Positions 2,501 through 54,437 of a DNA stretch of 64,000 nucleotides are shown in pieces. The position numbers and the translations under genes were made by a program. The notes below the pieces were generated by a model. It saw nothing but the letters and a program-made list of their open reading frames with translations, was not told the origin of the DNA and did not search any database. Positions within the stretch are counted from its first letter, which is position 1; each line of letters begins with the position of its first letter. Origin of the DNA: Mytilus galloprovincialis (Eukaryota > Mollusca > Bivalvia > Mytilida > Mytilidae); the NCBI RefSeq assembly GCF_965363235.1, contig NC_134843.1, positions 87,453,795-87,517,794 on the forward strand. The letters run 5' to 3'.

Positions 2501-3515
2501 TATTATGCGGCTTGTTTGAATATATTTAGCATGAAAACCAAAATTCATTGATAAATCTGCGTATGATATGACGTTTGAAAGTGATGTTGAAACTATAGAC
2601 AGATCCCTTATTTGTAACAAAAAGTCTTTTGTTTTATTCAAAAACAATCGCACAACACTTCAAATTTGGTGAGACATCAGTTGACATAAGATATAGATAA
2701 AACTATCCCACAGCTTCCGTCTTGGAAATCAGTATTTTTAACAACACGTACTACGTGCTATGCGGCACTGCAATATTTAGTGACGGGAAATTTGGCCAAC
2801 CTTAATATTTGCTCACCGTGTGCCTCTGGTTGGAAAATTGTTCAAAATGACAGGCTGGAGCCAGATTTATTTGAATGACACCAGATACAATATCTTATTT
2901 GTTCGTATAAGGAGAATAATATTTTCATAATCCATATGATTGCAAGGATCAAGGTTTCTCTTGCACTGATTTGGGTTTTTGTGAAAATGTACTAGGTAGT
3001 TTTTACAATATCTAGTCCGTACCAACCGACATAGATGATGACTCAGATCAATTATCATAAAAAGTAATTTTTTTGAAATAAGAAGTAATTTTAGTTTGAT
3101 TTTTTCAACGTTTAATTATGTATGGTAACAGTCATGTCTCACTTTTTATATTTGTTATAGAGCACATTTGCAATAATTGTAGTAATGTCGAATGAACATT
3201 AAACTGGCAACATCTGAAAAGTTATCATTTACTGAGACTGCTGAAATTCGCTTTATGAAAACTCAGTGACATGTGGATTCGCCGAAAACGTAAACGAAAT
3301 TTTACATGACATTTTGTTTGATTTGTCAACAGTGAATTACGGATACTCTTTTAACAAATCATATTCTGAAGTATTTCAGACGTCGTTTACAAATATCAAA
3401 AATATCTACACTAACTGAAATATTGATACAATATACTATTAATTTTTGTTATTTAAAGGGTTATTTATTTGAAAATTTTCAATGGTTTGTTTCTCCAGAT
3501 GAAAATATATATTAT
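2501..3515. other. AT-rich intergenic DNA, no gene seen
   Basis: Nothing codes here that I can recognise. From about 3,350 the sequence becomes collinear with 26,960 onward, so this end already belongs to the unit later duplicated at 26.96-32.66 kb. Confidence 0.5.
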
Positions 3516-4378
3516 TTAGTGACAAACTTTGACCTTGATTTACGGCAATATTGTACCAGCTTTTATATTTACGTTACATATTTTCGAAAAGTATACGCCA
3601 TCAGATTTTAAATGAGCCTTTTAAACCCCATAAAGTATTTAGGTAATTTAAATTTCTAAATCTGTCCTCCCCTCTGCTCCACTATTATAGCTTCACCGGA
3701 CCTTTGTCGCTATCCATATTTTATCGAATCATAATTATATTTTGCTAGCTTATCGTACAATCCGTACAAACAGATGTAATTGTGTATAGTTAATTATATT
3801 ACGTTCAATATTATTCATTTATCTATCATAACACTGTGTCTTGTCTTTCTTTCACTTTGTCCCTTAGATTTAAGATTCCATAGCTGTTGCATCTAAACTA
3901 TCTCTCTGGTTTCTAACTGTGTTATCTATGGCGTTTTCGGTTTGATTTCGACTTCTGTGTTTGGATTACCTTTGGTCAAATTTGATATATCAGGTGCTTC
4001 GAAAGGGTAAGCAAATCTTGCTCCACATGTGGCACCATTTAACTAAGTTAAATTATCTAATTCGATGTCGGTGTGGACCGAAATAAACTTCAGTGGTATT
4101 TTATCTGATGGTACTTGTAATTAAATTTTCATGACGCAGATCTTTCTTTAAATAAAAAATTACTACAGTGATTAAGGAAATCAAACCGTAAGACTTATTT
4201 TCACAAATATTTACATACGATTTATAACATCTTTATGTTTGTGACTGTTGGTTTTTGTTGAAAAGAGTATGGATGTACTTTTTTGTTTTTAATCAATGTT
4301 GTCTTCCACTCAATCAACCATAACGACAAAGATTGATGAGAGCATAAAGAAGGTATAAAGAGAAAAGACTAATTAAAC

Positions 4379-4384
4379 TTTATT
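4379..4384 (-). terminator. Poly(A) signal of 3F gene A
   Basis: AATAAA on the minus strand lies about 70 bases downstream of the gene A stop codon. The same position relative to the stop is kept in gene D (19,108-19,113). Confidence 0.65.
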
Positions 4385-4453
4385 ATCGATCATTCGATTC
4401 CATACAGATAGGTAATATGTTGCTGTACTAACACTTATAAAGATATTATTGTT

Positions 4454-7400
4454 TCAATAATTATATTTTCTTCGTCCCCATGAACCTCGTCTCCAGCCAT
4501 TGTTCCAGCCTTTATTACCGCCATAATAGCCATAACGTCTGCCATATCTATTATATCTGTTATAGTTACCACCTCCGTAGCGTCTTGGAGGACCATAGTT
4601 TGGACCATAATACTGAAATATCGAAACGATACAACTCAGAGTCAATTCTGATGACAAAATATATAAAAATTCATAAAATTTATAATATTGACAATCAAAT
4701 AAATATACTAGTATATGAACAAACTTGTCGATGATTAAAACAGCTTTGACTATTCTGTTTATGCCCTTTTCCCGGTATTTACAATTTGAATTTTTTTGGC
4801 TTTTGGCATCCACAGTATTAAATAATTCCGAAAACACATGTAAAACCGATGTAAGATAAGTTTCCTGTTTTTGATTGATGTTAAGCATGCTTTAGCTGTC
4901 AACAAAAGCAGGAAGTACGAAACATTTAACAATATGACGGTATGAAATTATTCCTTCAAAGAGGGGATAAAGGTTTATTTTCGTGCAACGTGTTTTGCCA
5001 TTTTTATTTTACGTGCAGCCGTTAAAAAGGTTCGTTATTATCGTGTTTCATGAAATCGATAAAAAGATAAAAGTGCAAAAAAAAAATGATTAATGTTCGC
5101 ACATCGTGAAATGGCAATTTTTATTCGTTTTCCTCCTTGCAGAAACCCCCGTTTTGCGCCCCTATTCAAAAAAAGAAACAACTAGGTGATCCCTTGGTAC
5201 AGTTGCATCAAGAATGCATGAGGTCATGGATTCCAACCAACCAGGGTTCAACAAAACCTTTTAAATTGTTATTTGCTCCATCTATCACGATCGTTAGAAG
5301 TAAACCAGAACTCGGAGTAATGTGTTTGTATGTGAACATGACGATTTAATAGAAAGTTGTATTTTCAAATTAACGAAACGTATAAACCTCGAAAAAATGT
5401 AAAGACAAAAATCCTGAATGAATGTCATCAATTAACAGAATAGAAAACTTATATGCAATTGTTAGATATAAACATTGTTATAACGTCCAGTTGTAATACA
5501 AAAATATTGTTATGACATGTAGTTGGAACGAAATGAAATACGCCGTTTAATACTGAAACTGATTCAAAAATTTTGAAAATGTGTGTCACATGAAAACAGG
5601 CGTTGTCCTGCTGAAAATTTTGGTTAAAATGATGACTTCGGAGAAAAGGGAGAACAACTTGAGCTAAAAGTTCGTCCCTATACCGTTAGGTTAACATCAC
5701 TAATTGTTAGAATGATGCGTTCCTGGTATGGTATCATAAATCTATCACCACCAAACCGATCTGTTTCAAGTACGCACGCATAAGATAGTTCATTATGCCT
5801 CTGATAGACTCTTGCTCTGTCGTAGCTAAAATTTAAGTTGAATTTAGATTCATCGGTTTAAATAACCTGTCTATCTCCAAGTTAGCCTATTTCATCGAAT
5901 CCGTACCCGAGTCCATTGAAGTCACACCATCGTGTAGCGCTGTGTTAGGATAAGTCCCCTTAACGGACGAAGAACTCTTAGACTAACTTGATGTAATCGG
6001 TTACGAATTGTTATGACAGATATTCTATTTCCCCTGTGGGTTTGTGGTGCTGTTTATATGATGCATTATCAAATCGATTCCGGAGATGAATATTGCGGAT
6101 GTGTTGTCTTGGCGTAACGTCGTTTAACGTGGCCTGCCACCTTAAGGACGATCATTTGTCATGCCGGTATCTCCTAACGTTTCTTTTACATTAGTAGAAC
6201 AGTTACCAATGTGATATCTTAAACCATAGACAAATAACTAAATACAACATGACAAACAAATTTTTACTAACTAACAAGATTTTTGGAGTTGATTTAGTCA
6301 CCGTAAAATGATCAAAATTATTTTTATAAATAAAATATGCCAGATCGTTTTATAAGTTGACTTAATTATCTTTGTTTGGATTAAACTTGAAGGAGACATT
6401 TACTTTTTTGAAGTCACAAAAAGTGTTTTTGTAACTTGCCTAGAACTTCGGTTTATTTTCCTTAACCCTTTCCCTTTCACAACGGTACAGCTTACCGGTG
6501 AAGCCAATTTCAAGATTTTTTTTTTGGGGGGGGATTTAGACATTTGCTGACGTACAGATGTGGTTAAACTATTTAATCCTCAGATAACCAGCAATGTGAT
6601 TCAATGTGCATCACACTTCTACTATAAATAGTTTATAGTCAAAGCGCCCCTTACTGATGTGTAATTTTTCTGTAAAAACCATTTACTTTTCTTCGAATTT
6701 TGAGGAATATTCTCAAAAAGAAGACAATAGAAAACTGCTCTTTTAAGAGCATTTATGACTTTTTTCAATAACTGTGCAGTGATTTTTTGAAGAATAGTAT
6801 TAAACTAATAGTTATAACTTAAACACTACTTTAAAATGTAATTTTTAGTGTAGCAGTGCAATCACAAACTTGAAATGCGCTAAAAATCCAAAATCATTTC
6901 TTAAAGACATTAGGGGAAAAGAGACAAAAACCACTAGAATATTCTGATTTTTTTATTTTTTTTTTTGCAAAGTTGAAATAGATGTAAAAAAACATGGTTT
7001 CGTAAGTGTTGCGGTATGATAAAGTTGAAAACACTTTTGTTTGAATAAAGGAACACGTATATTTCAATGAAAAAATTACATTTTAAAGAGTGGATTCCTC
7101 CTAGATTTGCGTAAAAATCATGCATTTGGCAACAAAAATTTATCATTTGAACACATAATTGCTAAAAGAAAAGAAACTCGAGGCATTGTGTTTCCACCAA
7201 AACCCGACTCTATCAGTGCAACAATATGTCTCTGCATGACTCTTTGACCAAGGATTTCGTATTTTTTCACTTTTTCTCCAACAGTCTCGTGATTTTTTGA
7301 AATATACCACGTGACAAAAAACATGAGGAATTATCTTGAAACATAATTTTTTGAAATATTTTACCTATTATCTTTCATTTGAGCCCAACATGGCATGTTT

Positions 7401-9423
7401 ATGACCATTAATGCGAATGCAGTAATCATTTTAACTTTGATAATGTCTTTTCGATAAGTAAAGGCCTAAAATGCCTGAAAAGGAAAGGGTTAATGTCTTT
7501 CTTCAACAAAATGATATTTTTGTTTTAAAGGGAAACGCATGATGTGAAAAGTTTCTTTATTTACTCAATAAAGAAAACATAATCCGTATTTCGAATCTTT
7601 CAGAACTTTTATGTCATTGATAAGAACAAGAACTTGTACCGTATCTAGGTACATATCAATTCAATTACTGAATACCTGTGTTAAACAAAAATTAAATTGA
7701 ACCGGTTTTGAGATATGCAGAACATATCAAATTTTGCACTCATATAAGGAACTTCCTAGAAGTTGTATAAGCAATGTTGTTTAACTTAGTCTAATTGTGC
7801 AAAATTCGACAACAGGGAGCAGTATATATGAAAATAAGTGTTAGAAAGGGACTGAATACCACGACACAATCATCACCAACTTTTTTTGTGTAAAATTCAA
7901 AAACTTATATGTCTGTCTATATTGGCATAGTTTTGAAACTTTTTTGTAGTTTTAAAGCAAAGGGAGTTTAAGTTTTAAATGTCATCGACAATGTGTTTCT
8001 ATACTCAAAATTAGTCGTCTGAAAGAATTAACCGATTTATGCATAATACACGACCATTTCTTAAAATACTACAAAAAATGCAATTTGTATATTTGTTGTT
8101 CTTGGTATCAAGTGCGTTTAAAAACCATGGTTAAAAAACTACAAGTTACCGCACACAATATCATCATCAAGAAAGAACAGGAAGTGAATAAATCTTACAG
8201 GAACGAAACAAAATAATTTTGTAACACCCACAACAATAATCTGCATGTTAAGATCTAGCTATCTACCGCTCATAAATTCCGACATGCAGGTGATTATATA
8301 GCAAGGTTATTTAGCATATTTTTTTTCGAATGCTGTAGACATAATTTATTAAATTTCTTATACAATATTTTCCCTGTTGTTCGCTTGCAAATAATTGAGA
8401 CATGGATCAAACCGGGCTTACTGACTGTTGATTTGATGATCGTTTTATCACAGTCCATCGAAAATATTTATTTTTTAAAATATTTTAAAACATTTAGACA
8501 TTTTGTATCGGATCAATGGAAGAAAGATACACCTGATACATTGCCTAGTATTAATACTTGTATTTTCTATTGATTAATAACAAGGGTTCTCATATATCTC
8601 GTCTATTTTTATATTGTTCATTTAACCCAATATTGTATATTATTTAAATCATATCTCTTCCATTCATTACATAGTTTTGTCTTGTTATGTCACTTTAAAA
8701 ACTACAGGTATTAACCAACTTACATCACTTGCATCTGAAAAACAAATCAACTAAGAATGAAATATAAATAGTCTTGAAATATATTGATTGTCTTTCAAAT
8801 TGTTTGTTACCCAATAAGTGTTGTGTTCGCAAATCTAATATATAAGTTCATTATTTACCAGGCTTTATAATATATCAAATATAAACATAACATAAATACT
8901 TAAATGAAAAACAAAGCTTTGATATACAGAGGTATTTTGACATCATGTAATAAACGATCAATAATGCAAATGTTTGACGTTGAGCATTCCTGATTAAGGT
9001 AAATCCAGAAAAGCGCTTCGGACGAATAGAATTATTAAACGTGTTGTTTTCAATTTTTTTTTATGGATATCATTCAAAGATAAATAAAGTTTACAAGTTA
9101 TTGATTTATAAAATAGGAAGTAAAGAGAGGTTGCAAGTTTAATTTGCGCAAGCAAACTATATATTTTCATGGTATAACCTAAATTAAATGTTTTGAAATG
9201 TTATACTCTTTGGCAGATATTTTGAATAGATATATCTTATAGAGACTGCTACCAAATTCGTATGCAATAATTGAAAGATTAAACAAAAAATCCGACAAAG
9301 AAAGAAATATCAACAAATTGTTATGAACAATATTTCCAAGACAAAGTTTTACTAACCACTTTGCACAGCAAATGATCCAATTAGGACTAAAGCCACCAAC
9401 ACTGCAACACTGATTTTATTCAT
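4454..9423 (-). CDS. mfp-3: Mussel foot protein 3, fast/Arg-rich type (copy A), three exons
   Basis: Secreted adhesive protein of the byssal plaque. In the family many Tyr become DOPA and some Arg become hydroxyarginine, and the protein primes adhesion at the plaque-surface interface. Exon 1 (9,357-9,423) encodes a signal peptide starting MNKISVAVLVALVLIGS. Exon 2 (8,724-8,734) is an 11-base microexon giving D-A-S-D across the junctions. Exon 3 (4,454-4,612) gives 52 residues: YYGPNYGPPRRYGGGNYN at the start, GWNNGWRRGSWGRRKYNY at the end, with 12 Tyr, 10 Arg and 3 Trp. Splice phases agree (donors GTTAGT and GTAAGT, acceptors CAG), giving a 78-residue precursor with no internal stop, so the gene looks functional. 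Intron 2 is about 4.1 kb against 0.4 kb in copy D, owing to inserted transposon-derived DNA. Very close to published Mytilus fp-3 variants by memory; no database search was done. Confidence 0.93.
4745..8385. other. Insertion within intron 2 of 3F gene A
   Basis: Copy D's intron 2 (18,470-18,891) matches the two edges of this intron but lacks this central stretch. It contains the Tc1-like remnant at 5,575-6,235 and otherwise unassigned AT-rich DNA, with a T/G homopolymer run near 6,518-6,534. Most of it recurs in the same order at 28.9-32.0 kb, so it predates the block duplication. Small open frames near 6,934-7,324 show nothing recognisable. Confidence 0.7.
5575..6235 (-). mobile_element. Decayed Tc1/mariner-family transposase remnant
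   Basis: Conceptual translation of the minus strand, with frame changes and stops, gives short pieces typical of Tc1-like transposases. They are a GRPR..TTLRQD helix-turn-helix segment (about 6,100-6,150), IHLRNRFDNA just after it, an R-V..R-P..G-x-I-L-T segment, and further on a Y-D-R-A-R-V-Y-Q-R stretch. The element is far from functional. A shorter piece of the same copy is at 28,990-29,365 in the duplicated unit, so the insertion happened before that duplication. Terminal repeats could not be assigned. Confidence 0.7.
8970..9160. repeat. Dispersed repeat R5 in intron 1 of gene A
   Basis: Contains GGTAAATCCAGAAAAGCGCT followed by TCGGACG and a TTTACAAGTTATTGATTTAT stretch. A near-identical copy is at 57,440-57,640 in the second block. 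Shorter diverged relatives lie in intron 1 of 3S genes C (14,645-14,720) and H (62,685-62,760). Gene D's intron 1 has none. Confidence 0.7.
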
Positions 9424-9500
9424 TGTTTGCTATTGAAACTGTTTGCAGAATGGAGCTGATTACTGAAAATTATCCTATATTCTAGTTGACAATTGTTTGC

Positions 9501-9580
9501 ACTTTATATATACTTTGTTTAGTCAATTCACTGCAGATCTGTTAATCAAGAGGAAGAAATAATCACACACATGTTCCTTA
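9501..9580 (-). promoter_or_regulatory. Proximal promoter of 3F gene A
   Basis: On the minus strand: GGAACATGTGTGTGATT, then CTTCCTCTTGAT, a GCAGTGAATTGACT block, and a TATATATAAA box at 9,503-9,512, about 80 bases before the ATG. The same ordered elements precede copies B, C, D, F, G and H, and the block is far more conserved than surrounding intergenic DNA. Confidence 0.75.
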
Positions 9581-9589
9581 AACAATGAG

Positions 9590-10254
9590 ATCAAAGTTAA
9601 ATTACAAATGTCAGTGCATAGCGTAATATGTATACATCGTTAAATTATTTGCAAGAATGGAAATTGAAAAAGAGGAAATTGAAAATATGTAGGGTATTTC
9701 ATGATAATGATTTACTTTAAGAATAATATAGATGTTGTAATCAGAGTTCTGCTAGAGTCAGCTTTTAATTAAAAAAAAATGCAAAACAAATATTCGAAAA
9801 ACCCTAGCAATTTATCAAAATTGGGTATTGTCTCAGCTCAAAGGTTTTGTGTCCTTTCAAATTTAATTTCGCATGATAGGTGTTAATGTATTGCAGGATA
9901 CACTGTCATTGTTGACGCTTTATTTTTTGTTCATGTGATTCCCTCAGTTTAAAGTCTTTACATTGATAAGTATCTTCTTTCGAATGATCTGCTGAAATTC
10001 GATAAATTACTGGATATTTTAGCATCTCTGCAAGATAAACTATTTTCCTACACCATGTTTTAGCGAAGGGCATTTTTGTTGGTAAATATGTGTATGAAAT
10101 ATGAAAATTTTAGGATGTGTTATGAATGCCATTGAGACAACTAATCACCAGAGCTCAAATTATAATCTTTCGTAGCATAGTAATCTGAAAAAAAAACTGA
10201 AATTTACTAGTAATACATCGAGTAGGTAAAATTCAGCCTCGATTGAATCAAAAA
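9590..10254. other. Spacer between 3F gene A promoter and 3S copy B
   Basis: No gene seen. The sequence is the reverse complement of the C-D spacer (about 17.0-17.7 kb) and a direct copy of 58.05-58.7 kb. The stretch at 10,110-10,165 is an inverted fragment of the dispersed R3 repeat ('atgccattgagacaac'). Confidence 0.6.
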
Positions 10255-11318
10255 TGCGGACCTGTTTTTGTATTGTTATGAGTTACAATTTATGACTAAA
10301 ATTATCAAAGACCCATCAAAACAACATTTGATACAAAAATTTAACAATACTTTTAGATATTTGGATGATATATTGGCTCTAAATAATGACGACTTCAGTA
10401 TGTATACTAAAGAAATTTATCCTGTAGAACTTACTTCAAATAAAGCTAATGATAACAATGACCACTGCCCTTTCCTCGATCTTGATATCTATATCATAAA
10501 CGGGAAGCTTAATACAAAAATTTATGATAAAAGAGATGATTTTTCATTTCCTATTGTTAATTATCCATTTTTAGATGGTGACGTTCCCTTATCACCATCT
10601 TATGGTGTTTATATATCTCAACTTGTACGATTCGCTCGTGTATGTAACAATGTATTAGATTTTAACGAGAGAAATTTATGTATTACTGAAAAATTATTAC
10701 ACCAGGGTTTTCGATATCACAAACTGGTCAAAACATTTACTAAAATTTTATCACCGGTATAAGGAAATAATTCGTAAATATAACTCAACATGCAGACATC
10801 TTATACGTTCAGGTATTTCACATCCAAAATTTTATGGAAATATTCTTTATAAAGCACAAAAATGTCAATATTCTCCTCAGAAACTAACAAAACCTTTAAA
10901 TAGACTTATTAAAAGGGGATATAGTTACGATACTGTTGTCAGGTCATTAAAGATTGCATATTTTGGCTTTAACATTGATTCACTGATAGGGTCTTTGCAT
11001 CGGAACTAAACACATTTATTTCTAAAAAAAACAGTTGTTGGCATGACACGGGTTATGTTCTTCTCATATATTTTATGATAGTATGATACTAAACCCCTAA
11101 CGGGAGGGATTGTACCTGATATTCATATGATGAAGACATAATCTTTCAATCAGTTTAATTGAGGTCTGGAGCTGGCTTGTCAGTTAACTGCTAGTAGTCT
11201 GTTGTTATTTATGTATTATTGTCATTTTATTTATTTTCTTTTGTTACATATTTTGACATCAGACTCGGACTTCTCTTGAACTGAATTTTAATGTGCGTAT
11301 TGTTATTCTTTTACTTTT
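10255..11318 (+). mobile_element. Fragment of a Penelope-like (or related non-LTR) retroelement
   Basis: An open stretch of about 160 codons (10,268-10,762) carries a reverse-transcriptase core with FRYLDDIL. It is followed by C-P-F-L-D-L-D-I, SPSYGVYISQLVRFAR and a KLVKTFTK segment, the layout I associate with Penelope-like elements. Its tail after the frame ends with an untranslated segment (11,160-11,310) that recurs at 12,775-12,960 and 60,296-60,480. Only the 3' half is present and it looks broken. The second block has only about 100 other bases at this point (58,690-58,800), so it is specific to block 1. Exact family is uncertain. Confidence 0.65.
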
Positions 11319-12774
11319 CTAATAATACCTCGTTTTGAATTATTGAGTTAAACAAAATGATGCTCTTTCAAGATTAAAAATCTAAATTTCCAGATAACAT
11401 TGGGATGTTTTATACAATTTATAAAACATTTGTGCATTTGCCGTCAGCAAATTAATCAACTATAACGATAATGATGGATGACTATATACAAATAAAAATC
11501 AAGAAAAACAAGTCGAAAATCAGTAAGCTTTAATTATCTATCTTATATATCAACATTGATAGGGTTTTTTAACTGATAGTTATAGAGGTAGCCTTTGTTT
11601 CAGTATGGTCCACTCCAGGGACCGTTGTTCCAGTCTTTATTTCAGTCATAATTTCCGTGATATCCAGTGTACCCGTCATAACCATGGTAACCATTGTTGT
11701 ATGGTAAATTATATCCTGGAAAATAATCCTGAGATATGAAAAAAAAGATTTAAGATTGAATCAATGATGATTTTGATATATAAAGCAATTTAAAAGTGCG
11801 TAATATAAATTAAAACAATGACACTATATATCATTGAAGCAGCTGATGATTCAAGCCTTCTTTTCTATGTTGTTTCATCCATTCCTGTAAACTATATCTA
11901 TATTTGTATCTTTTAGTTTGGTAATAATTTAGTAAATAGTAAAATTAGATAAAAGCATAACAATTTATTTTTCCATCCATTTTCCCAGATTGATTTACCT
12001 TTGCTTAACACGTGTGACACTCTAGTCTATAAATAAATGACTGTTTAGAAACAGTGAGTTAAACTTGCAGTTATATTTCAATTTTTGAAAATTGAGTACA
12101 CACCAACAAAAAAATGATTAACACATTTTGAAAAACTTGTATTTTACTAAGTAAGTATGTCTTGTTGATACAAGAATAATGATATGAAATCATGTTGTAT
12201 TTGAAAACGTGGCCATGTGCTGTACTGTGTACAATTCTCTGAAACCAGGGGAGTAATAAAGATGTAACCCCTTGTAAAAGACTTGTGAATGTTACCAAAT
12301 GGACATTCAAGCTTAACAGTCAAAAAGATAATGCTCTCGTAAATAAAAAAACAAAAAAGAAAAAAAAAAGAACCATACGACAATATACAAACCAAAACGA
12401 GAAAACTGAAGACTGAACAACAGAAACCCAACAAAAACCGACTTGATGATTGTTTCGATATCACACCATGACGGCTTGTATTGGCTGAGACAAAACCTTA
12501 TCATTTACATGTTATCAAATATATTTTCTGAAACTAAATCGTCACAAATGTTTCACCCAGAAAGATTACCATTGAATATATTACAAATAAAATTGTCTTG
12601 CTTCTGTATTGTTTATTATAGTTTATTTAAGTTTATTATAAAATCAAAAACTACGTAACTAAATTGTTGAACTGAAATTCATTGCGTGTGACTGTTTTTA
12701 TTCATTTGTTCTATTTTTCTGGTGTCGACCTGGGCGTCTTACATAATGCTTTTCATGTCATATAACAAACTTTA

Positions 12775-13265
12775 AGGTCTGGACCGGGCATATAAGTTAA
12801 CTGCTAGTAGTCTGTTGGTATTTATGCATTAATCTCATTGCATTTATTTTCTTTTGTTATTTCTTCTGACATCGGACTCGGACTTCTCTTGAACTGAATT
12901 TTAATGTGCGTATTGTTATGCGTTTACTTTTATACATTGGTTAGAGGTATATGGGGAGGGTTGAGATCTCATAAACATATTTAACCCCGCCGCAATTTTG
13001 CGCCTGTGCCAATTCAGGAGCTTCTGGCCTTTGTTAGTCTAGTATGATTTTTAATTTTAGTTTCTTGTGTATAATTCGGAGTTAAGTATGACGTCCATTA
13101 TCATTGTACTAGTATACATATTTTTAAAGGGCCAGCTAATGAACGCCTCCGGGTGCGGGAGTTTCTCGCTACATTGAAGACCAATTAGTGACCTTCGGCT
13201 GTTGTCTGCTCTATGGTCGGGTTGTTGTCGCTTTGACACATTCCCCATTTCCTTTCTCAATTTTA
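12775..13265 (+). repeat. Retroelement 3' tail (R4) inside copy B intron
   Basis: Contains ATCGGACTCGGACTTCTCTT and GAACGCCTCCGGGTGCGGGA, and ends near TCGCTTTGACACATTCC. The first part matches the tail of the retroelement fragment at 11,160-11,310. The whole unit recurs at 60,296-60,785 in copy G, so it was present before the block duplication. Confidence 0.7.
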
Positions 13266-13544
13266 TTTTGGTATTTCTCAACTTACATATCCTGCATCTA
13301 AAAAAAAAGGATTATCAAATATAAGTCATTTTTGTTAAGTATGGAACAATTGTTTTTGTAATCACTGTCTTTAACTTGCTTCTTTGTTAAAATCTATATT
13401 TGATTAAAAAAAAAGATTAATATATATCAATTGAAGTGTAAACAAATCTAACATTCGATTTTTCATGTGTCAGTAAATAACAATAAGATAAGTATATAAA
13501 AAAAGAATTTTGAAAAAGAAAGCGGAAAACAATAGCAGAGCTAT

Positions 13545-13735
13545 AAAAGAGGGGCGAAAGATACCAAAGGGACAGTCAAACTCATAAATCTAAAATAAAC
13601 TGACAACGCCAAGGCTAAAAATGAAAAAGACAAACAGACAAACAATAGTACACATGACACAACATAGAAAACTAAAGAATAAACAACACGAACCCCATCA
13701 AAAACTAGGGGTGATCTCAGGTGCTCCATAACATA
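13545..13735 (+). repeat. Dispersed repeat R1
   Basis: Starts near GATACCAAAGGGACAGTCAA and ends at GGTGATCTCAGGTGCTCCAT. It has a direct counterpart at 61,045-61,240 in block 2. Confidence 0.7.
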
Positions 13736-13965
13736 TACAACTTTTTCAACAATTTCGAATTAATGACACATAGAAGAACAAATATTTATGAAAGCAATAA
13801 TAACATTCTTCCTGTTTTGATATTTCGTTGGTATGATTGCCCAATTTTATAGAACTAAAAGACTGAGTTCAACCGATTCTATTGGGTGACCGTTATTTTG
13901 AATATGATAAAGCCAGGATACGCTGGTTGTTCAGAAATACTTCTATTCTGGCTGAATACTGTCTG

Positions 13966-14035
13966 CGCTTTATATACATTTCGCAATGAACCCACTGCAA
14001 ATCAAGAGGAAGAAACAACCACACATATGTTCCTG
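13966..14035 (-). promoter_or_regulatory. Promoter module of copy B
   Basis: Minus strand: GGAACATATGTGTGGTTG, then TTTCTTCCTCTTGATTTGCA, a GTGGGTTCATTG block, and TGTATATAAAGCGC at 13,965-13,978. It is slightly more diverged than the module of gene C, as expected for a promoter no longer serving an intact gene. Confidence 0.6.
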
Positions 14036-14130
14036 TTACAATAAGATTTGAAATGTAAATGTATTACATAATCCGGATCGCCCTTGTCATGTTAGATGCA
14101 AGAATGAAAATAAAAATACAAAATATGCCA

Positions 14131-14250
14131 AAATGATTAAAAACAAATTGCTCAGAGAAAAATTTAAGGTCTTCCCACCAGGAAGGATAAAAATATCAAA
14201 ATTTGAATTGAATGTGAATTTCAGCGACAAATGACAGCTTATTGTACGAT
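14131..14250. other. Centre (spacer) of the palindrome and of the divergent B/C promoters
   Basis: A 120-bp sequence flanked by inverted arms that read 'atgttagatgcaagaatg' on the left and 'cattcttgcatctaacat' on the right. It separates divergent 3S promoters. The same spacer, slightly altered, lies at about 62,153-62,287 in block 2. It has no coding content. Confidence 0.8.
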
Positions 14251-14344
14251 TGGTATTTTTTGTATTTTTATTTTCATTCTTGCATCTAACATGACAAGGG
14301 ATACGGATTATGTAATATATTTACATTTTAAATCTTATTGTAAT

Positions 14345-14412
14345 AGGAACATGTGTGTGATTGTTTCTTCCTCTTGATTTGCAGTGAGTTGATTGAAAAA
14401 TATATATAAAGC
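14345..14412 (+). promoter_or_regulatory. Proximal promoter of 3S gene C
   Basis: GGAACATGTGTGTGATT, then CTTCCTCTTGAT, TGCAGTGAGTTGATTG and a TATATATAAA box at 14,401-14,410, followed by GCGCAGAC. The TATA box lies about 80 bases before the ATG. This is the best preserved of the 3S modules. Confidence 0.75.
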
Positions 14413-14488
14413 GCAGACGAATATTCACCCGAATAACAGTATTTCTCAACAATCAGCGTATCCTTGCAAACGGTTAGATCAAGAAGCA

Positions 14489-16719
14489 ATGAAGACATTC
14501 AGTTTCACAGTTGTGGTGGCTTTAGTCCTAATTGGATTATTTGCCGTGCAGAGTGGTAAGTAAAGATTATTTTTGTCCTTTTTGGTTATATAGATATTCT
14601 ACTGTTTCGTTTCTTAAACCTCATTGGCTTTCAAATAATTGCCTTTGAGCATTCCGGATAAAGGTAAATGCAAAAAAGTGTGTTAGACGTAAGAAATTTA
14701 TAACATAATGTTTTTAATTTGTTTTATCAAACTTTTGAAATCTATAAAATGGCGGATAACTTTTCATAAGCACAAAATATGTAAACAAAAATCCAGCGTC
14801 TTTGCAAAAGCTTCGTCATATTCAATATCACGGTCTAACAATATAACGAAATTTAAAACGAAACTGTCGTACAAGTGAGAGGTTTAGCGCTATAAAACCA
14901 GGTTAAATCCACCATTTCTACATTTGAAAATGCCTGTACCAAGTCAGGAATATGACAGTTATTGTCCTATTATTTTTTATGTGTTTTGTCATTTGATTTT
15001 GCCATGTGATTATGGACCTTCTGATTTGATTTTCCTCTGAGTTCAGTATTTTTGTGATTTTACTTTTTGAAACAGTTAAACTCATTCTTTATGTCTATCA
15101 AATTGCGCAATCATAACAACAATCGAAACAGGAAAAGTTTAATGATTTGCTTTCAGAATTATTTGTTCTTCTATTTGTCATTAATTCAAAATTGTTGAAA
15201 ACTATTTATTGATTATTTGCTATAGATTGTTTTCTACGTATATTTTGAAAATTCTTTTTATATATTTATATTATTATCATTTACTGACACATGACAAATT
15301 ATAATGTAAGATTTATTTTCACTCTAATTAATTTATCCATATATTTTTCTGGTATTTTTTTTTTTTTTTTACAAAGAAACAAGTTTCAAACAGCGATTAT
15401 AAAAACATTTGTTCCATACTTTACCAAAACGATTTATATTTTTATAATCCTTTTTTCAGATGCAGGCTATGTAAGTTTTAAATTTTTTAAAAACTGTTAT
15501 ATGACATGAAAATCATAACGTACGACGCTTACCTCGACACCAGAAAAAAGAACAAATGAATAAAAACAGTCACACACAATGAATTTCAATTTAACAATTT
15601 AGTTAAGTCATATAATTTGCGTAGATTTTGATAACGGGTTTTATATAAACTTAACAATAAAAATCCAAGACAATTTTATTTGTAATATTATCAATGGTAA
15701 TCGTTCTGGGTCAAACATTTTTGACGATTTAGTTTCAGAACATAAATTTGATCAAATGCAACTGATAAGGTTTTGTCTCAACGAATACAAGCCGTCCTGG
15801 TGCAATATTGAAAGAGTAATAAAGCCTGTTTTTGTTTTGGTTTTCGAGTATATTGCCGTATCGTTTGGTCGGGGTGTTTTCCCTTTTTTTACCAGAGCAT
15901 TATCATTTTGACTGTTGAATTTAAATGTTCATTTGGTAACATTGGCCACTCTTTTACAGAGTATTATATCTTTATTAATCTGCCGGTTTAAGAATTGAAC
16001 AAACACAGTAATTGACCACGTTTTCAAATGTAACACGATTTTATATCATTATTCTTGTATAACAAAAGGGAATACTTACTTAGTAAAACACAAGTATTGC
16101 AAAATGTGTAGATCATTTCTTTTTTTTTGGGGGTGTTTCCTCAATTTTGAATTTTAGATATAACTGCAAAATATATTCAAATATTTATTGATTTATTTGA
16201 AAAAATCCCCATTCCTTAATTCACTGTTTCTAAACAGTCATTTATTTATAGAGTGGCACACGTGTTAACCAAAGGTAAATCAACCTGTTGAAATGGATTA
16301 GAGAATTAAATGTTTTGTGATTATTATAATGTTAACTACCTGCAGTTGTTGAATTGTCACCAATCTATAAGATACAAATATTGATCCATGTATATATAAT
16401 AGGAATGGATGAAACAAAATAAACAAGAAGGCAAGAGTCATCAGCTACTTAATAATATTGATATAGTGTCATTGTTTAAATTGATATTACGCAGTTTTTA
16501 ATTGCTTTATATTTCAACATCATCATTTATTCAATCTTAAATCTGTTTGTCTTCATATTTTAGGGTTATTATCCAGGATATGGTTTACCATACAACAATG
16601 GTTACCATGGTTATAACGGATACACAGGCTATCACGGAAATTATGGATGGAATAAAGGCTGGAATAACGGTCCCTGGGGAGGACCATACGGAAACAAAGG
16701 CTACGTCTATAACTATTAA
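14489..16719 (+). CDS. mfp-3S: Mussel foot protein 3, slow/Gly-Tyr-rich type (gene C), three exons
   Basis: Secreted byssal plaque protein of the less charged, more hydrophobic fp-3 class, which in the family carries fewer DOPA residues and resists oxidation better. Exon 1 (14,489-14,555) encodes signal peptide MKTFSFTVVVALVLIGLFAV. Exon 2 (15,460-15,470) is an 11-base microexon completing D-A-G-Y. Exon 3 (16,564-16,719) gives 51 residues starting GYYPGYGLPYNNGYHGYNGY, with GWNKGWNNGPWGGPYGNKGY near the end, then VYNY. It has 13 Tyr, 15 Gly, no Arg, 2 Lys and 2 His. All junctions are GT-AG in phase, giving a 77-residue precursor; likely cleavage is after D-A, making the mature start GYGYYPGYG. 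The start is set by homology of the signal peptide. No defects are seen. It pairs head-to-head with broken copy B and lies 1.16 kb upstream of 3F gene D. Confidence 0.92.
14845..15075 (+). repeat. Dispersed repeat R2 in intron 1 of gene C
   Basis: Same unit as at 2,285-2,500, with AAATGCCTGTACCAAGTCAG and CAGTATTTTTGTGATTT. The copy is also in gene H's intron 1. Confidence 0.75.
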
Positions 16720-16841
16720 CTAAAACTGTCAATGTTGATATGAATGACAGATAATTAAAGTTTTACTGATTTTCGATTTGATTTTTATTTGTATATAGTC
16801 TTCCATCATTATAGTTATAGTTTATTGATTTGCTGACGGAA

Positions 16842-16847
16842 AATAAA
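16842..16847 (+). terminator. Possible poly(A) signal of gene C
   Basis: AATAAA about 120 bases after the stop. A variant ATTAAA lies nearer, at about 16,754-16,759, so the true cleavage site is uncertain. Confidence 0.4.
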
Positions 16848-17720
16848 GAAATGTTTTTAAATTGTATTGAAACAAAACTATATTATCTGGCAGTTTAGAT
16901 ATATAATCTAGAAAGAGCTTCATTTTGTTTAATAACTTTGATATCTAAAAACGAGGTATTATAAGGGCCATTATTTTGGCCATTGGAATTGCAGAAAAAT
17001 GTGTGGGTGTTGGTATTGACTGAAGAAATGTCATTTATGGTTCAATCTAGCTTGAATTTTTCCTTACTCTATGTCTTGCTAGTAAATTTCAGTTTTCAAT
17101 TTCTATGCTATGCTACGAACGATTTTGATTTGAGTTCTGGTGGTTAGTTTTCTCAATGGCATTCATACCACATCTTTATATATTTTCATATTTCATACAG
17201 ATATTTAAGAACGAAACAAATACTAATCGTTTAACATGGTGTTGTTAGAAAATGACTTCTTGCATAGATTCTAAAATACCAATTTATTTATCGAATTTCA
17301 TCAGATCATTAGAAAGAAGATAAAAGTTAATGTAAACCCTTCAAAATAGGGAATCACATACACTCTAAAGAAAGCTTTGACAATGAAAGTGTTTCCTTTT
17401 CCTTATGAATACCTGCCATGCGAAACCAAACTCGAAAAGACACAAACATGACAACTGAAAAAAAAACAATTTTGATAATTTGCAAAGGTTTTTCGAACAT
17501 TTTTATAAGATAAATATGTTAAAAGCAGATTCTAGCAAAACTATGGTTAATGTTATTTATTTCAACATCTATATAATTCTTTCAAAGAGTAATAATGATG
17601 AAATAACCTACATTTCTTGGATTTCCTCTTTTCAATTTCCATTCTTGCAAATAATTTGACAATGTATACATAATATGTTATGCACTGACATTTGTGTTTT
17701 AACTTTGATCTCATTATAAC

Positions 17721-17800
17721 AGGAACATGTGTGTGATTATTTCTTCCTCTTGATTAACAGATCTGCAGTGAGTTGATTAAACAAAGTATATATAAAGCGC
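17721..17800 (+). promoter_or_regulatory. Proximal promoter of 3F gene D
   Basis: GGAACATGTGTGTGATTATT, then CTTCCTCTTGAT, TGCAGTGAGTTGATTAAAC and TATATATAAA at 17,787-17,796. It is nearly identical to the inverted module of gene A. Confidence 0.75.
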
Positions 17801-17878
17801 AAACAACTGTCAATAAGAATAAAGGATAATTCTCAGTAATCAGCTCCTTTCTCCAAATAGTTTGAATAGAAAACAATT

Positions 17879-19047
17879 ATGAATAATATGAGTGTCGCAG
17901 TGTTGGTGGCTTTAGTCCTGATTGGATCATTTGCTGTGCAAAGTGGTAGGTAAAATTTTGTCTTGAAAATGTTGTATATTACAATTTGTTGATAGATATT
18001 CTTTTGCCGTATTTTTTTTGTTTAAATTTCAATTATTGCAAAAGTTTCCGAGATCAGTTTCTATAAAAGTATCTATTCAAAATATAAGTGAAAGAGTAAA
18101 CCATTTCAAAACATCAAATTTAATTTTATTATTGTATTAATTAAACTAAGCCATTTAAATGATACACCATACCATAGAAAAAAATCAAACATGCAACCTT
18201 TCTTTACTTTTTATTATATCAATCACAAAATAGTAATCTTTATCGTTAAATCATATCCATTTAAATGCAAACTAGGTAAATGCTGCATTATTGACCGTTT
18301 GTTAAATAATGTCAAAATACCTCAGTTTTGTTTTTTCATTAAAGTGTTTATATTTGATATGTTATTAAACCTGGTAAATAATGAACTTGTATATTAGATT
18401 TACGAACATTCCTCATTGAGTAACAAAAAAACTCATTCATAGTTGATTTGTTTTTCAGATGCGAGTGATGTAAGTTTGTTTATTTAGTTTTTAAAGTGAC
18501 ATAACAAGACTAAACTATGTAATGTATTGAAGAGATATAATTTAAATAATATACAATATTGGGTTAAATGAACATTATAAGAGATATATGAGAACCCTTG
18601 TTTATATAAATTGTTAGCAAATACAAGTATAAATAATATGCATTGTATCAGGTGTATCTTTGTTCCATCGTTCCGATACAACATGTCTAAATGTTTTAAA
18701 CTGTTTTAAAATATAAATATATTTCGAGGGACTGTAATATAACGAGCTTCAAATCAACAGTCCTTTAAATCATATGCAAGTTTGTTCATACACAAGTATT
18801 ATCATTTGATTGTTAATATTACGAACTTTTTGAATTTTTATATTTTTTGTCATCAGAATTGATTCTGAGTTGTATCGTTTCAATATTTCAGTATTATGGT
18901 CCAAACTATGGTCCTTCAAGACGTTGGGGAGGTTATGGCAACTATAACAGATACAATGGCAGACGTTATGGCGGTTATGGCGGATATAAAGGCTGGAACA
19001 GAGGTTGGAGACGAGGTTCCTGGGGGCGACGAAAATATAATTATTAA
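17879..19047 (+). CDS. mfp-3: Mussel foot protein 3, fast/Arg-rich type (gene D), three exons
   Basis: Same role and architecture as copy A. Exon 1 (17,879-17,945) encodes the signal peptide MNNMSVAVLVALVLIGS..AVQS. Exon 2 (18,459-18,469) is the 11-base microexon giving D-A-S-D. Exon 3 (18,892-19,047) gives 51 residues beginning YYGPNYGPSRRWGGYGNYN and ending GWNRGWRRGSWGRRKYNY, with 11 Tyr, 10 Arg and 4 Trp. The donor after exon 1 is GTAGGT, the others are standard, and the frame is clean for a 77-residue precursor. Against copy A it has PSRRW for PPRRY and GGYGG repeats in the middle, so it is a distinct sequence variant. Introns are short (513 and 422 bases). It lies downstream of 3S gene C on the same strand with its own TATA box. 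Confidence 0.94.
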
Positions 19048-19107
19048 AACAATGAAAGTGTTAGTACAGCAACATATTACCTATCTGTATGGAAACGAAT
19101 GATAGAT

Positions 19108-19113
19108 AATAAA
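19108..19113 (+). terminator. Poly(A) signal of gene D
   Basis: AATAAA about 60 bases after the stop codon; it aligns with the gene A signal at 4,379-4,384. Confidence 0.65.
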
Positions 19114-19375
19114 GAATTTTCTCTTTATTCCTTGTTTATGCTGTCATCAATCTTTGTCGTTATGGTTGATTGAGTAGAAGACAGCATTGATAACAAAAAA
19201 AAAAACAATAATAACATCCATACTTTTTTTCAAAAAAAACAACAGTCACAAACATAAAGATTATATAAATCGTATGTGAAAAGTTAAAAAATTTAGGGTT
19301 CGATTTCCTTAATCACTGTAGTAATGTTTTATCAAAAGAAAAATATGCGTTATGAAAAATTAATTACTGTAACTT

Positions 19376-19570
19376 ATTTTCGCGGATACTTGATTTCGCG
19401 TTTTACCCTTTCTAGACCACTTCGCGGCTATTTCATTTCGTGATTGACTGAATTACTTGATGAAGTTAAAAAAAAGTAGTGATCAAGTTTAACATATTCG
19501 CGACGATTATTTGCATTATTTTTCCTACTCGCAAAAGCATCTAAAATAAATAGAACACAAAAATAAGTTG
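19376..19570. repeat. Probable small insertion with CGCG-rich ends
   Basis: The stretch has TTCGCGGATACTTGATTTCG and TTCGCGGCTATTTCATTTCG motifs and a later TTCGCGACGATTATTTGC. It is absent from the matching left-arm position near 4,140, so it looks like an insertion into the right arm. No coding content; family unknown. Confidence 0.45.
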
Positions 19571-20285
19571 GTTTAAAGAACCATCAGATAAAATACCAAG
19601 GAAGTTTATTTAGGTCACAACCGACATCAAATTAGATTATTTAACTTTGTTAACGGGTGCCACATTTGGAGCAGAATCTGCTTACCCTTCCGGAGCACCT
19701 GGGATATCAAATTTTACCAAAGGGACATTCAAACACAGAAGTCGAAAAAAAACCAAAAACGCTATGGTTACCACAGTTAGAAAACAGAAAGAGAGACATT
19801 TTAGATGCAACAAATATGAAATCTTCAATCTAAAGGACAAAACGAAAGAAATAGAAGAGACAGTTTGATGATCAATAAATGAATAAAATTGAACGTAGAA
19901 TAATTTACTACCAAAATATGATTATGATCCGATAATATATGGATTACGACAAAGGTCAGGTGAAGATATATTATAAGAGCAGAGGAGAGGACAGATTTAG
20001 AAATTTAAATAACCTTAATACCTAATGGGATTTAAAAAGCTGATTTGAAAGCTGATGTCGTGTACTTATACGTGATATTTTGCAATATGAAATTTATAAA
20101 TTAAAAAGAAAAAATTATAAAAACATATAATTGATAACATCGAAGAGCTTCAAATGAACAGTCTTTTAAATCATATAAAATCATATTAACCCTCGGAGCC
20201 GAAACGTCAAACAGCAATGAAAATATTTGTCGTAAATATAAAAGAGGGTATAATCTTGCCGTAAATCAAGGTCACAGGTCATCAA

Positions 20286-27690: not shown

Positions 27691-28989
27691 ATTACATTAC
27701 GTTCAATATTATTCATTTATTTATCATGAAACCATCTATTCTCTTTCTTTTGTTTTGTCACAAAGATTTAAGATTCCATAGCTGTTGCATCTAAAATCTC
27801 TTTCTGTTTTCTAACTGTGTGAGCCCTGGCGTTTTCGGTTTGATTTTGACTTCTCAGTTTCGATGTCCCTTGGGAAATATTTGACATCTCAGGTGTTCTG
27901 GAAGGGTAAGCAGGTCCTGTTCCACATGCGGCACCCGTTAACAAAGTTAAGTTTATCATTTGGGTGTCGGTATAGACCTAAATAAACTTCAGTGGTATTT
28001 TATTTGATGATATTAAGTAATAGATTTTTCATGACGCAGATTTTTCTTTTAATTAACATTCACTACAGTGGAAATCGAACCATAAGACTTATTTTTAGAA
28101 ATATTCACATACGATTCATAACATCTTTATGTTTGTGACTTTTGTTTTTCGTTGAAAAGAGTATGGATGTTTTTATTTGGTTTTTTTATCAATGCTGTCT
28201 TCTACTCAATCAACCATAACGACAAAGACTAACGAGAGCATAAACAAGAAATGAAGAGAAAAGACTTATTAAACTTTATTATCTATCATTCGTGTCCATA
28301 CATACAAGTTATATGTTGCTGTACTAACATTTATAAAGATATCATTGTTTCAATAATTGTATTTTTGTCGTTCCCATGAACCTCGTCTCCAGCCTCTGTT
28401 TCAGCCTTTATTACCGCCATATCCGCCATAACGTCCGGAATATATATTGTATCTGTTCTAGTTGCCACCTCCACAACGTCTTGAAGGACCATAGTTTTGA
28501 CCATAATACTGAAATATTGAAAAACGATACAAATCAATTATGATGACAAAATATATAAACATTCATAAAATTTATAATATTGCCAATCAAATAAATATAC
28601 TAGTGTATGAACAAACTTCCCGATGATTTAAAACAACTTTGGCTATTCTCTGCCCTTTTCCCGGTATTCATAATTTAAAATGTTTTGGCTTTTGGCTTCA
28701 ACACTTTTAAAAAATTCCGGAAACACATGTACAACGGATGTAAGATAAGTTTCCTGTTTTAGACTGATGTTAAGCATGATACAACTGTCAACAAAACGAG
28801 GAAGTACGAATTATGAAACAATATGACGGTATGACATTATTCCTTCAAAGATAGTGGTAAAGGTTTATTTTCGTGCAACGTGTTTTGCCATTTTTATGTT
28901 ACGCGCAGACATGAAAAAGGATCGTCATCATTTTGTTTCGTGAAATTGGTTAAAAAATATAAGAAACACCTAGGTAGTTCCTTGGTACA

Positions 28990-30930: not shown

Positions 30931-33454
30931 GGCTTTCGTTTGGATAAAGCTGGAAAGATAAATTTACACTTTTTAAGGCCACAAACAGTTTTTTGTAACT
31001 TGCCTTGAACTGCGGTAAATGTATCTTTCTTTAACCAAAAGATTTTCAAAGTATTCATTTTAACTTTGATAATGTCTCTCCGATAAGTAAAGGCCTAAAT
31101 GCCTGAAAGTGAAAGGGTTAATGTCTTTCTTCAACAAAATGATATTTTTTTCTAAAGGGAAACGCATGATGTGGAAAGTTTCTTTATTTACTCAATAAAG
31201 AAAACATTATCCGTATTACAAACATATATTTGAATGGTATTTCGAATCTTTTAGAACTTTTATGTCATTGATAAGAACAAGGACTTGTCCCGTGTCTAGG
31301 TACATATCAATTGAATTACTGAATACCTGTGTTAAACAAAAATTAAATTGAACCAATTTTCAGATATGCAGAATATATCAATTGTTGCATTCATATAAGG
31401 AACTTTCAAGAAGTTGTATAAGCAATGTTATTTAACTTAGTCTAATTGTGCAAAATTCGACAACAGTGACCAGTATATATCAAAATAAGTGTTAGAAAGG
31501 GACTGAATACCACGAAACAATCATCACCAACATTTTTTGTGTAAAATTCAAAAACCTATATGTCTGTCTATATGGGCATAGTTTTGAATCTTTTTTGTAT
31601 GTCTTCTTTGCAGTTTTAAAGCAAAGGGAGTTTAAGTTTTAAATGTCATCGACAATGTGTTTCTATACTCAAAATTAGTCGTCTGAAAGAATTAACTGAT
31701 TTATGCATAATACATGGCCATTTCTTAAAATACTACAAAAAATGCATTTTGTATATTTGGTGTTCTTGGTATCAAGTGCGTTTAAAAACCATGGTTAAAA
31801 AACTACAAATTACCGCACACAATCTCATCTCCCACAAAAAACAGGAAGTGAATAAATCTTACAGGAACGAAACAAAATAATTTCGTAACACTTACAACAA
31901 TAATCTGCATGTTAAGATCTAGTTATCTACCGCTCATAAATTCTGACATGCAGGTGAGCATATAGCAAGGTTATTTAGCACCTATCACGCATATTTTTTT
32001 TCGAATGCTGTAGACATAATTTATTAAACTTCATATACAATATTTTCCCTGTTGGTCGCTTGTAGTTGAGACATGGATCAAACCAGGCTTACTGACAGTT
32101 GATTTGATGACCGTTATATCACAGTCCAGCGAAAAATATTTATTTTTTAAAATATTTTTAAACATTTAGACATTTTGTATCGGATCAATGGAAGGAAGAT
32201 ACACTTGACACATTGCCTAGTATTAATACTTGTATTTTCTATCAATTAATATAAACAAGGGTTCTCATATATCTCGTCCATTTTTATATTGTTCATTTAA
32301 CCCAATATTGTATATTATTTAAATTATACCTCTTCAATTCATCACATAGTTTTGTCTTGTCACGTCACTTTAAAAACTACAGGTATTAACCAACTTACAT
32401 CACTTGCATCTCAAAAACAAATCAACTATGAATGAAATTTAAATAGTCTTGAAATATATTGATTGTCTTTCAAATTGTTTGTTACCCAATGAGTGTCGTG
32501 TTCGCAAATCTAATATATAAGTTCATTATTTATCAGGCTTAATAATATATTAAATATAAACATAACATAAATACTTTAATGAAGAAACACAGCTGTGATA
32601 TGCAGAGGTATTTTGACATTATGTAATAAACGGTCAATAATGCACATTTACCTAGTTTGCATTTTTTAAAAGAGACAGTGTCAGTAACTATCAAGTATTG
32701 TCCATATTATGACCGGAAAGTGAAAAAAAATATTTCCTTTTGATGTTTTGATATATGGTAGCATACATGATTGGTAATTCATATACATGTTACTGAAGTT
32801 GTATATCCACTGTTTCCATGGTAACGGATAAACAATTTTGTTGAAAAATGTGAAATGTTACAGTATTGTGTTTTATTTTGATATAGATTACAAATAAAAA
32901 AAAATATTGCTCAGACTGATTGAATGTGACATTTTCAAGTGTTCATAGTGATTAATAGTCCAAAAATATGTGTTAATTTGTTGTTTGTTAGATAAAATGG
33001 TCCTTTTTGATTCGAAATCAGATTTTTTCTTGACTTCTGTGAAATGATAAAACTCAAAAACGCAACACAGTTGTGGAAATATTCAATATGTACTCCAAAA
33101 TGAATGATTTGGACTAATAAGTTCAAAAATAAAAATTGGTAGCCAGCAACTAGAAAAGACATAATTTGATTCAGAACATAGTAGTAAAAGTGCATGTATT
33201 GAAGAGGATTATCTCCCCTGATTGAACTCTTCGCCTAGAGATAAACTAAATGCACATGAAGTTGACAAGATTGTCATTGTCAACAAGCAGACGGATTTGT
33301 TTTTCACACTCTGAAGCAATGATAATGTGGAACAGGGGGAGGAATCATTATTAAACATGACAGAAAACAATGCCTGTAAGTTTTAAAATTCATATTTACA
33401 TTTAAATTCTGTATAACATGTATATACTACTGAGTACTGTAACATGGTAATAAA

Positions 33455-50800: not shown

Positions 50801-51676
50801 ACAGGTCCCATAGTTGTGATAAATTTTCAGTGTAATTGCTTTTAAGTATAAAATAGTCTATAAGTTTTTCTATTTTATCTTTATAAGATTTGTCAGTTAG
50901 TATGCTGTTGTTTATTTTAAAGAACCCTTTACCCTTATTATCATTGGACATGTTAATTTTCAATGAAATTGCCTGATGGTCAGTACTAGAAATTAGGGCT
51001 GGTCTTATATCTGTAGACTTTATCATAGTTCTCAATTCCTTACCCGTTAGAAAATAATCTATTCTACTTGCCTCATCGTCTTTATTTTTACATTTCCATG
51101 TATATTGATATAGTTTCGGATGTAATTGTCTCCAAATATCTTCTAGTTTGTTTGTTTTTATTAAAGTTTTCAAACTATTTGTAATTTTTTGTTCTCTTTT
51201 TTATTATTATTCTTTCTATCTGTACTACTCAATGTTTCATTCATATCTCCCCCTACTACTAAAATTCCGAGACTATGTTCTTCAATTATTTTATTTACAT
51301 TTTTAAAGAAGATGTTTCGCTTTTTTTTCTCATTAGGTGCATATAAATTTATTAAAGAAAATATGTTGTTGTTTATTTCAACATTTACAAGAATTGTGCG
51401 ACCTTCTTGATCAGTAAAAGTATCAATTATCTTTGGGTTTATTGTTTTTTTAATAAATATAGCTACTCCTTTTGATTGTGTTGTGCCAAAACTGTGAAAA
51501 ATATCTGCGTCATATTCATTACTTACTTTATTTTCTATTTCTTTAACAAAATGAGTTTCTTGGATAAAAAGTATATCTGTTTTTTGATATTTTAACCAAG
51601 TATAAAGCCTATTTCTTTTTTCTTTTTGGCCTAGTCCTTGACAATTTAAGGAACAGATATGTAAAGTTTTATTCAT
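47878..51676 (-). pseudogene. LINE ORF2: endonuclease, reverse transcriptase, C-terminal zinc region (frameshifted)
   Basis: Starts at ATG 51,676 (MNKTLHICSLNCQGLGQKEK). The endonuclease part has LNCQG, FIQETH, VVGGDMN, and further on SRIDYF and SSTDHQAI. The reverse transcriptase has SPGLDGL, NYRPITLLN, FLDFSKAFDSLEWE, GIRQ and QLADDTTLF (the last encoded by 49,590-49,540). The C-terminus (48,234-47,878) has a Cys/His knot (CGIPDTYQHNFMEC). Frame changes near 51,180 and at 49,690 (a base short after GIRQ) and damage between 48,530 and 48,240 split the frame into at least four pieces. In the family this protein nicks DNA and copies the element RNA. As it stands no full protein can be made. 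Confidence 0.87.
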
Positions 51677-54253: not shown

Positions 54254-54437
54254 TCCAAGACTCAAAAGAGCAAAGTTATTGTACCATATAATGGTTACTA
54301 ATAGTTTTAAATACTGTTCTTTCAGAAATTTGACAAATTATCGTTACTAATGATTCAAAAATCTAAATTTTGCAAGAGCTCAGAAAAACTCCGTAGTGTC
54401 CACTGGGCCGCTTAGCCTACTGCTACTGTAAGTATAT

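Follow-up and report, generated by a model that had tools for sequence, protein, structure and literature searches.

How does a mussel come to carry so many variants of foot protein 3 (fp-3), a main surface-priming protein of mussel glue, and does the arrangement of the genes create this variety? The question is raised by a 64,000-nucleotide stretch of the Mytilus galloprovincialis genome (C6:87453795-87517794, here called the window), in which fp-3 genes of the two classes 3F and 3S lie interleaved in an inverted repeat. An earlier note on this DNA had suggested that gene conversion between the arms of this palindrome creates and homogenises the variants. We examined 144 kb including the window (zero N in this region; coordinates above 64000 continue the window numbering into the flanks) and searched a genome of 1.38 Gb in 331 contigs. 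We consider it fairly probable that the locus is a birth-and-death fp-3 cluster with inverted units, diverged arms, an unequal crossover and one spacer flip.

The inverted repeat itself is real. In a self-comparison, the left arm (3460-14131) matched the right arm (20341-14250) in nine colinear inverted blocks (Table 1), and 4,968 of the 6,092 right-arm bases aligned inversely to the left arm with 77.9% identity, while 0 bases were aligned in all 30 shuffles of a control using three-base blocks. The centre, which had been placed at 14.1-14.3 kb, was found at about 14.13-14.25 kb. The arms differ in length (10.7 kb on the left versus 6.1 kb on the right), and gene A spans about 5.0 kb versus 1.2 kb for gene D. 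Since the arms are about 22% apart, compared to a mean heterozygosity of 1.73% given for M. galloprovincialis in the available part of PMC7653742, they are not two alleles of one collapsed locus. All four mature fp-3 exons were present at the places indicated by the earlier note, in the order A (3F, minus strand, 4457-4612), B (3S, minus, 11576-11725), C (3S, plus, 16564-16716) and D (3F, plus, 18892-19044). A, C and D gave complete three-exon models, but B has no exon 1 and contains in-frame stops, so that a count of four genes is wrong. The common exon layout and promoter were borne out, with a shared TATA-type promoter of about 230 bases. 3F and 3S are one gene family, interleaved in an inverted duplication in which the 3S-3F pair was copied as a pair.

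The cluster contains three such inverted units: A B / C D (unit 1, the block just described), E H / C2 D2 (unit 2) and N M / C3 D3 (unit 3), the slash marking the centre. One of the six left-arm copies (A) is alive, compared to five of the six right-arm copies (all but D3). E and N share a stop in exon 1 and the loss of the first donor. A late TGA is common to B, H and M; alone it might be a normal stop, but each of these copies is more damaged, and M carries two further stops. Beside the units we found the pair C4 (alive) and U (dead, with no ATG and a TAG), as well as C5 (alive) and the 3F genes Y and Z.

A homogenised palindrome should have arms that are far more alike than same-arm copies elsewhere, and this is not what we observed. 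For each pair of units, informative sites were sorted according to whether they group same-arm copies, same-unit partners or cross pairs. For 3S these numbers were 240/0/0 in units 1 and 2, 187/1/20 in units 2 and 3 and 171/3/18 in units 1 and 3, with some sites contributed by the spacer, since the 3S alignment starts about 20 bases inside it. For 3F in units 1 and 2 the numbers were 142/2/3. In phylogenies of promoter, gene and mature-exon sequence, left and right copies were split by one branch in five of five trees, other copies not being counted. The support of this branch was 99/98 for the 3S promoter without the spacer, 100/100 for the 3S gene body (tree calculated without C5, which has a long intron), 97/96 for the 3S mature exon, 100/100 for the 3F gene and 93/95, the weakest value, for the 3F mature exon. 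As drawn, the promoter tree does not join C3 to C and C2, and the 3F mature-exon tree does not join A to E and N. The dead left-arm copies stayed broken next to their live partners.

The one clear trace of arm exchange lies at the centre, where at least one recombination took place. The distance from start codon to start codon, calculated from the exon places, is 605 bases in units 2 and 3. The spacer of unit 3 is inverted: within alignment columns 280-440, unit 2 matches it at 85 of 152 positions directly versus 144 of 156 reversed, while outside the flipped columns the direct orientation fits better. Judged by eye from the alignment, both breakpoints of the flip fall in a segment of about 45 bases common to both arms, and one crossover between the arms would explain the inversion. 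The flip (14231-14254) accounts for 14 of the 20 cross sites in units 2 and 3, and for 14 of the 18 in units 1 and 3. No similarity above that of shuffles was detected between the spacer and 3S upstream sequence, or between the two spacer halves. The unit 2 spacer contains a short perfect hairpin with a ten-base stem (62216-62245; 14187-14205 in unit 1), and a 12-base gap in unit 1 takes in one side of it. It is conceivable, although we regard it as quite improbable, that each unit has at its centre a bidirectional promoter whose repeated inversion, through exchange between the promoter arms, would let live and dead 3S genes swap upstream sequence in populations, and that exchange between direct units would keep generating hybrid glue-gene units. 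The locus would then be a device that reshuffles the set of adhesive proteins between individuals.

Considering these data, the idea that the 3F and 3S variants are made and homogenised by gene conversion between the palindrome arms is highly improbable, and for this haplotype it is largely refuted. The spacer flip demonstrates that the arms of one unit recombined at least once, the central promoters are the most similar part of the arms, and a few small patches might be conversions. The same-unit sites are nevertheless negligible next to the same-arm sites, and the broken left-arm copies were not repaired. The promoter of B is as similar to that of C4 (90.6%), which is in no palindrome, as to that of C (89.1%), and therefore promoter constraint suffices to account for the likeness at the centre.

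Growth of the array was analysed by block alignments with 8,926 columns shared by the three units, excluding the flipped spacer (14117-14295) and the stretch 11868-12414, where unit 3 aligns badly. The left part of unit 2 sides with unit 3 (332 versus 83 sites), and its right part sides with unit 1 (196 versus 63 sites). A single changepoint was located at 11,496-12,875, an interval that spans the excluded stretch 11868-12414, with a log-likelihood difference of 105.8 versus at most 7.8 in 300 permutations. Units 2 and 3 differ by 3.48% in the left part (188/5,395) and units 1 and 2 by 3.68% in the right part (130/3,531), which is consistent with halves of equal age (Fisher P 0.64), while the other unit comparisons gave 7.5-8.1% mismatch. 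Four linker blocks are present twice and in the same order. Such a hybrid is what unequal crossing-over of the type [a][b] -> [a][b-left/a-right][b] predicts, with the linkers fitting less well.

Several observations weigh against this history of diverging arms and a single crossover. With stricter bounds the two halves differ by 3.21% and 3.97% (P 0.105), the four linker blocks are 3.9-7.0% apart (gap-free) instead of the roughly 3.5% expected for one clean crossover, and the similarity of unit 1 to units 2 and 3 drops to 81-90% at its far left end (3792-5073), below that of the rest. Not all cross sites fall in the flipped spacer (six of the 20 and four of the 18 are elsewhere), B and M share one TGA that has no counterpart in H, and C3 and H share bases on the start-codon side; small conversion patches could explain the latter two. 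The left-arm deaths are also partly shared and represent few independent events, because E and N, and likewise B, H and M, have lesions in common.

The linker divergence, the difference between the strictly bounded halves and the uneven identity of units 1 and 2 along their length would also be expected if unit 2 resulted from gene conversion between direct units, or from several older duplications with different ends. This appears unlikely, since one changepoint fits strongly, the halves are of similar age, and the linker is present twice in order. It is less probable still that two haplotypes of a two-unit locus were joined into three units during assembly. The two divergences of about 3.5% could be allelic, and mussel genomes are described as very heterozygous and hemizygous in the available part of PMC7653742. 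Against such an artefact, the 144 kb are free of N, 3.5% is about twice the reported mean heterozygosity, the join would need an overlap of sequences that are about 7.5-8% apart, and joining of haplotypes cannot explain inverted arms that are 22% apart. We retain unequal crossing-over between direct copies of the inverted unit as the preferred explanation.

The earlier note had further proposed that 3F and 3S are sister genes from one tandem pair, a view that our data do not support. In a promoter and exon 1 tree of 24 copies, calculated without B (no exon 1), the eight 3S copies, including one located about 347 kb away, were split from the 16 3F copies with a support of 100/99, and therefore the classes are older than this pair. 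In promoter and exon 1, the neighbours D and C are 72.8% identical, compared to 86.9% for D and Y, a 3F gene some 33 kb away. These comparisons argue for 3F and 3S as old separate lineages, rather than products of this pair.

The fp-3 genes consist of three coding exons, including a predicted microexon of 11 bases. Exon 1, which encodes the signal peptide, ends in phase 1, but the mature exon opens in phase 0, and this mismatch rules out a two-exon layout. A microexon of 11 bases located between AG and GT restored the frame in 14 of 14 gene spans examined, while a model with an 8-base microexon found no match. The microexon codes for DAAD, DAAA or DASD in 3F and for DAGY in 3S. For the upstream 3F gene Y, the Pfam Mfp-3 score was 133.6 bits with the 11-base microexon, 119.2 bits with a 5-base form and 111.0 bits without it. 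In most old 3F genes and in 3S genes a second AG is present six bases into the microexon, and a 5-base form using it would keep the frame. The spliced proteins of A, C, D, C2, D2, C3, C4 and C5 have 73-78 residues and no internal stops. The first donor of A (GTTAGT) is weaker than the usual GTAAGT, and that of D (GTAGGT) also departs from the ideal. Against PF04202 (Mfp-3; cut-off 22 bits), the whole protein of D scored 112.0 bits, that of C 51.9 bits and the mature exon of A alone 71.3 bits. The mature 3F proteins are short and rich in arginine, glycine and tyrosine, with 8-10 arginines in 46-54 residues in A, D, D2 and Y, the four of 11 open 3F exons for which this was computed. The mature 3S proteins are poor in arginine (none in five of five open copies) and rich in glycine, tyrosine and asparagine. 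We take these arginine-poor copies to be the class named fp-3S. Foot expression and modification to Dopa (and hydroxyarginine) are further marks of fp-3F and fp-3S proteins. Mfp-3S of M. californianus is listed in the available part of PMC9783952.

Matches to fp-3 exons span 87.114-87.572 Mb of contig C6, a cluster of about 0.46 Mb. It contains at least 24 mature exons (16 3F and eight 3S), of which at least 16 are free of stops (11 3F and five 3S). These counts are lower bounds, since the genome search scores the best candidates and, outside the 144 kb, parts of the cluster were covered; one broken mature exon showing up as two matches was counted once. A protein search with a 3S mature exon gave nine matches: five plus-strand 3S without internal stops, three minus-strand 3S with one to three stops, and a weak 3F match. 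Of the 37 Pfam matches, 35 lie inside the cluster, and the others are at 101.3 Mb of contig C4 (26.7 bits, above the cut-off) and at 5.2 Mb of contig C6 (20.2 bits, below it). The distant 3S-type copy consists of a promoter, exon 1 and microexon (DAGF) at C6:87118295-87118366 on the minus strand; no mature exon was found for it in the stretch examined.

Table 1. Features of the fp-3 locus in window coordinates, continued into the flanks above 64000.
Feature	Position	Strand	Remarks
Inverted blocks 1-3	3460-3585/20341-20219, 3589-4116/20067-19576, 4117-4740/19367-18764		left arm/right arm
Inverted blocks 4-6	8423-8968/18762-18284, 9180-10256/18122-17032, 11319-12775/16965-15487		left arm/right arm
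Inverted blocks 7-9	13280-13533/15477-15226, 13743-13879/15201-15069, 13912-14131/14467-14250		left arm/right arm
Gene A (unit 1)	4457-9423	-	fp-3F, complete; three-exon model, 78-residue spliced protein without stop
Gene A, parts	exon 1 9357-9423, microexon 8724-8734, mature exon 4612-4457, stop 4454-4456	-	
Copy B (unit 1)	11576-14131	-	fp-3S, dead; exon 1 deleted; retains promoter and microexon 13287-13297
Unit 1 centre	13912-14467		two head-to-head 3S promoters (13912-14131, 14250-14467) flanking the spacer; 89.1% alike inversely
Gene C (unit 1)	14489-16719	+	fp-3S, intact; exon 1 14489-14555, microexon 15460-15470, mature exon 16564-16719
Gene D (unit 1)	17879-19047	+	fp-3F, complete; exon 1 17879-17945, microexon 18459-18469, mature exon 18892-19047
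Unit 2	27.7-32.7 kb and 57.4-68.5 kb		
Copy E (unit 2)	28353-57890	-	fp-3F, dead; exon 1 (57819-57890) with a stop; GT of the first donor lost; microexon 32399-32409; two stops in mature exon 28353-28508
Copy H (unit 2)	59055-61918	-	fp-3S, dead; exon 1 interrupted by a 159-base insertion; microexon has lost its AG acceptor; TGA near end of mature exon
Unit 2 spacer	62152-62284		133 bases as bounded; oriented as in unit 1, flipped in unit 3
Gene C2 (unit 2)	62524-64000	+	fp-3S, intact; exon 1 and microexon 63494-63504 inside window; mature exon beyond it, 64583-64732
Gene D2 (unit 2)	65910-67091		3F, intact; follows C2
Unit 3	71.8-86.3 kb		
D3 (unit 3)	84.4-84.8 kb		3F remnant; no exon 1 or mature exon found
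Predicted microexons in window	8724-8734, 15460-15470, 18459-18469, 63494-63504		

Compared to its direct copy H, B lacks about 506 bases including exon 1, with a 7-base overlap at the junction (11319-13914 and 13908-15968 match 58806-61424 and 61931-64000). Its mature exon (11576-11725) contains two TGA codons and has lost the usual stop, while the microexon acceptor is kept. The intron of E is split by an insertion of about 24.7 kb (about 32660-57350) that is absent from units 1 and 3. On the minus strand this insertion contains reverse-transcriptase stretches (48538-49707 and 49686-51200) and a zinc-knuckle frame (52982-54337), and three of the six frames searched gave no Pfam match. The mature exon of A (4457-4612) stands apart from its same-arm copies in the drawn tree and lies within the more diverged segment 3792-5073, so that A may have exchanged sequence with another 3F gene. 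At 14838-15070 and at about 4955-5170, inside the gene region, lie short elements (about 200-230 bases) that recur on many chromosomes with 81-93% identity.

From these observations we propose the following history. A plus-strand 3S-3F pair would have been copied once inversely, giving 3F(-) 3S(-) / 3S(+) 3F(+) with the 3S promoters head to head, and the arms would then have diverged without homogenising each other, with most minus-arm genes dying. The whole inverted unit may next have been duplicated in direct orientation (a, b), after which an unequal crossover in or close to the dead 3S copies on the minus strand would have produced the hybrid unit and with it the array of three. One exchange between the two arms of one unit would have inverted the central spacer. 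The live genes are predicted to be expressed in the foot and to give rise to secreted arginine-rich (3F) and arginine-free (3S) glue proteins, each presumably assembled from a signal exon, the 11-base microexon spanning the boundary with the mature protein, and a single mature exon. The variety within one animal would then mainly reflect many loci and two alleles of each. The available part of a review reports 30-35 mfp-3 variants (PMC9783952). At least 16 open mature exons with two alleles each would give a number of this order, and arm-to-arm conversion would not be needed. For expression work, the locus provides a defined set of live and dead copies, a common promoter and a predicted microexon, and it gives the 3F/3S split a history that can be tested.

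The genes described here are of the same sequence kind as the Mfp-3 family (PF04202) with its 3F and 3S classes, 3F being arginine-rich and 3S arginine-free in our data. What this locus adds is the arrangement of the genes, the broken copies and the predicted microexon. No account of the fp-3 gene layout was found in the literature searched, which was mostly without subscription journals; PMC7018726 lists many fp3 variants, and the available part of that paper uses none of the terms 'intron', 'paralog' and 'gene duplication'. The array resembles tandem arrays that grow by unequal crossing-over in having a hybrid between parental-type units, halves of similar age and a linker present twice, but here an inverted duplication is what repeats, and the linkers are somewhat more diverged than in the simple model. 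Palindromes of the human Y chromosome are kept alike by gene conversion between their arms. The fp-3 units share with them the inverted arms with a short spacer and a spacer inversion between copies, whereas the fp-3 arms are 77.9% alike and carry no signal of conversion.

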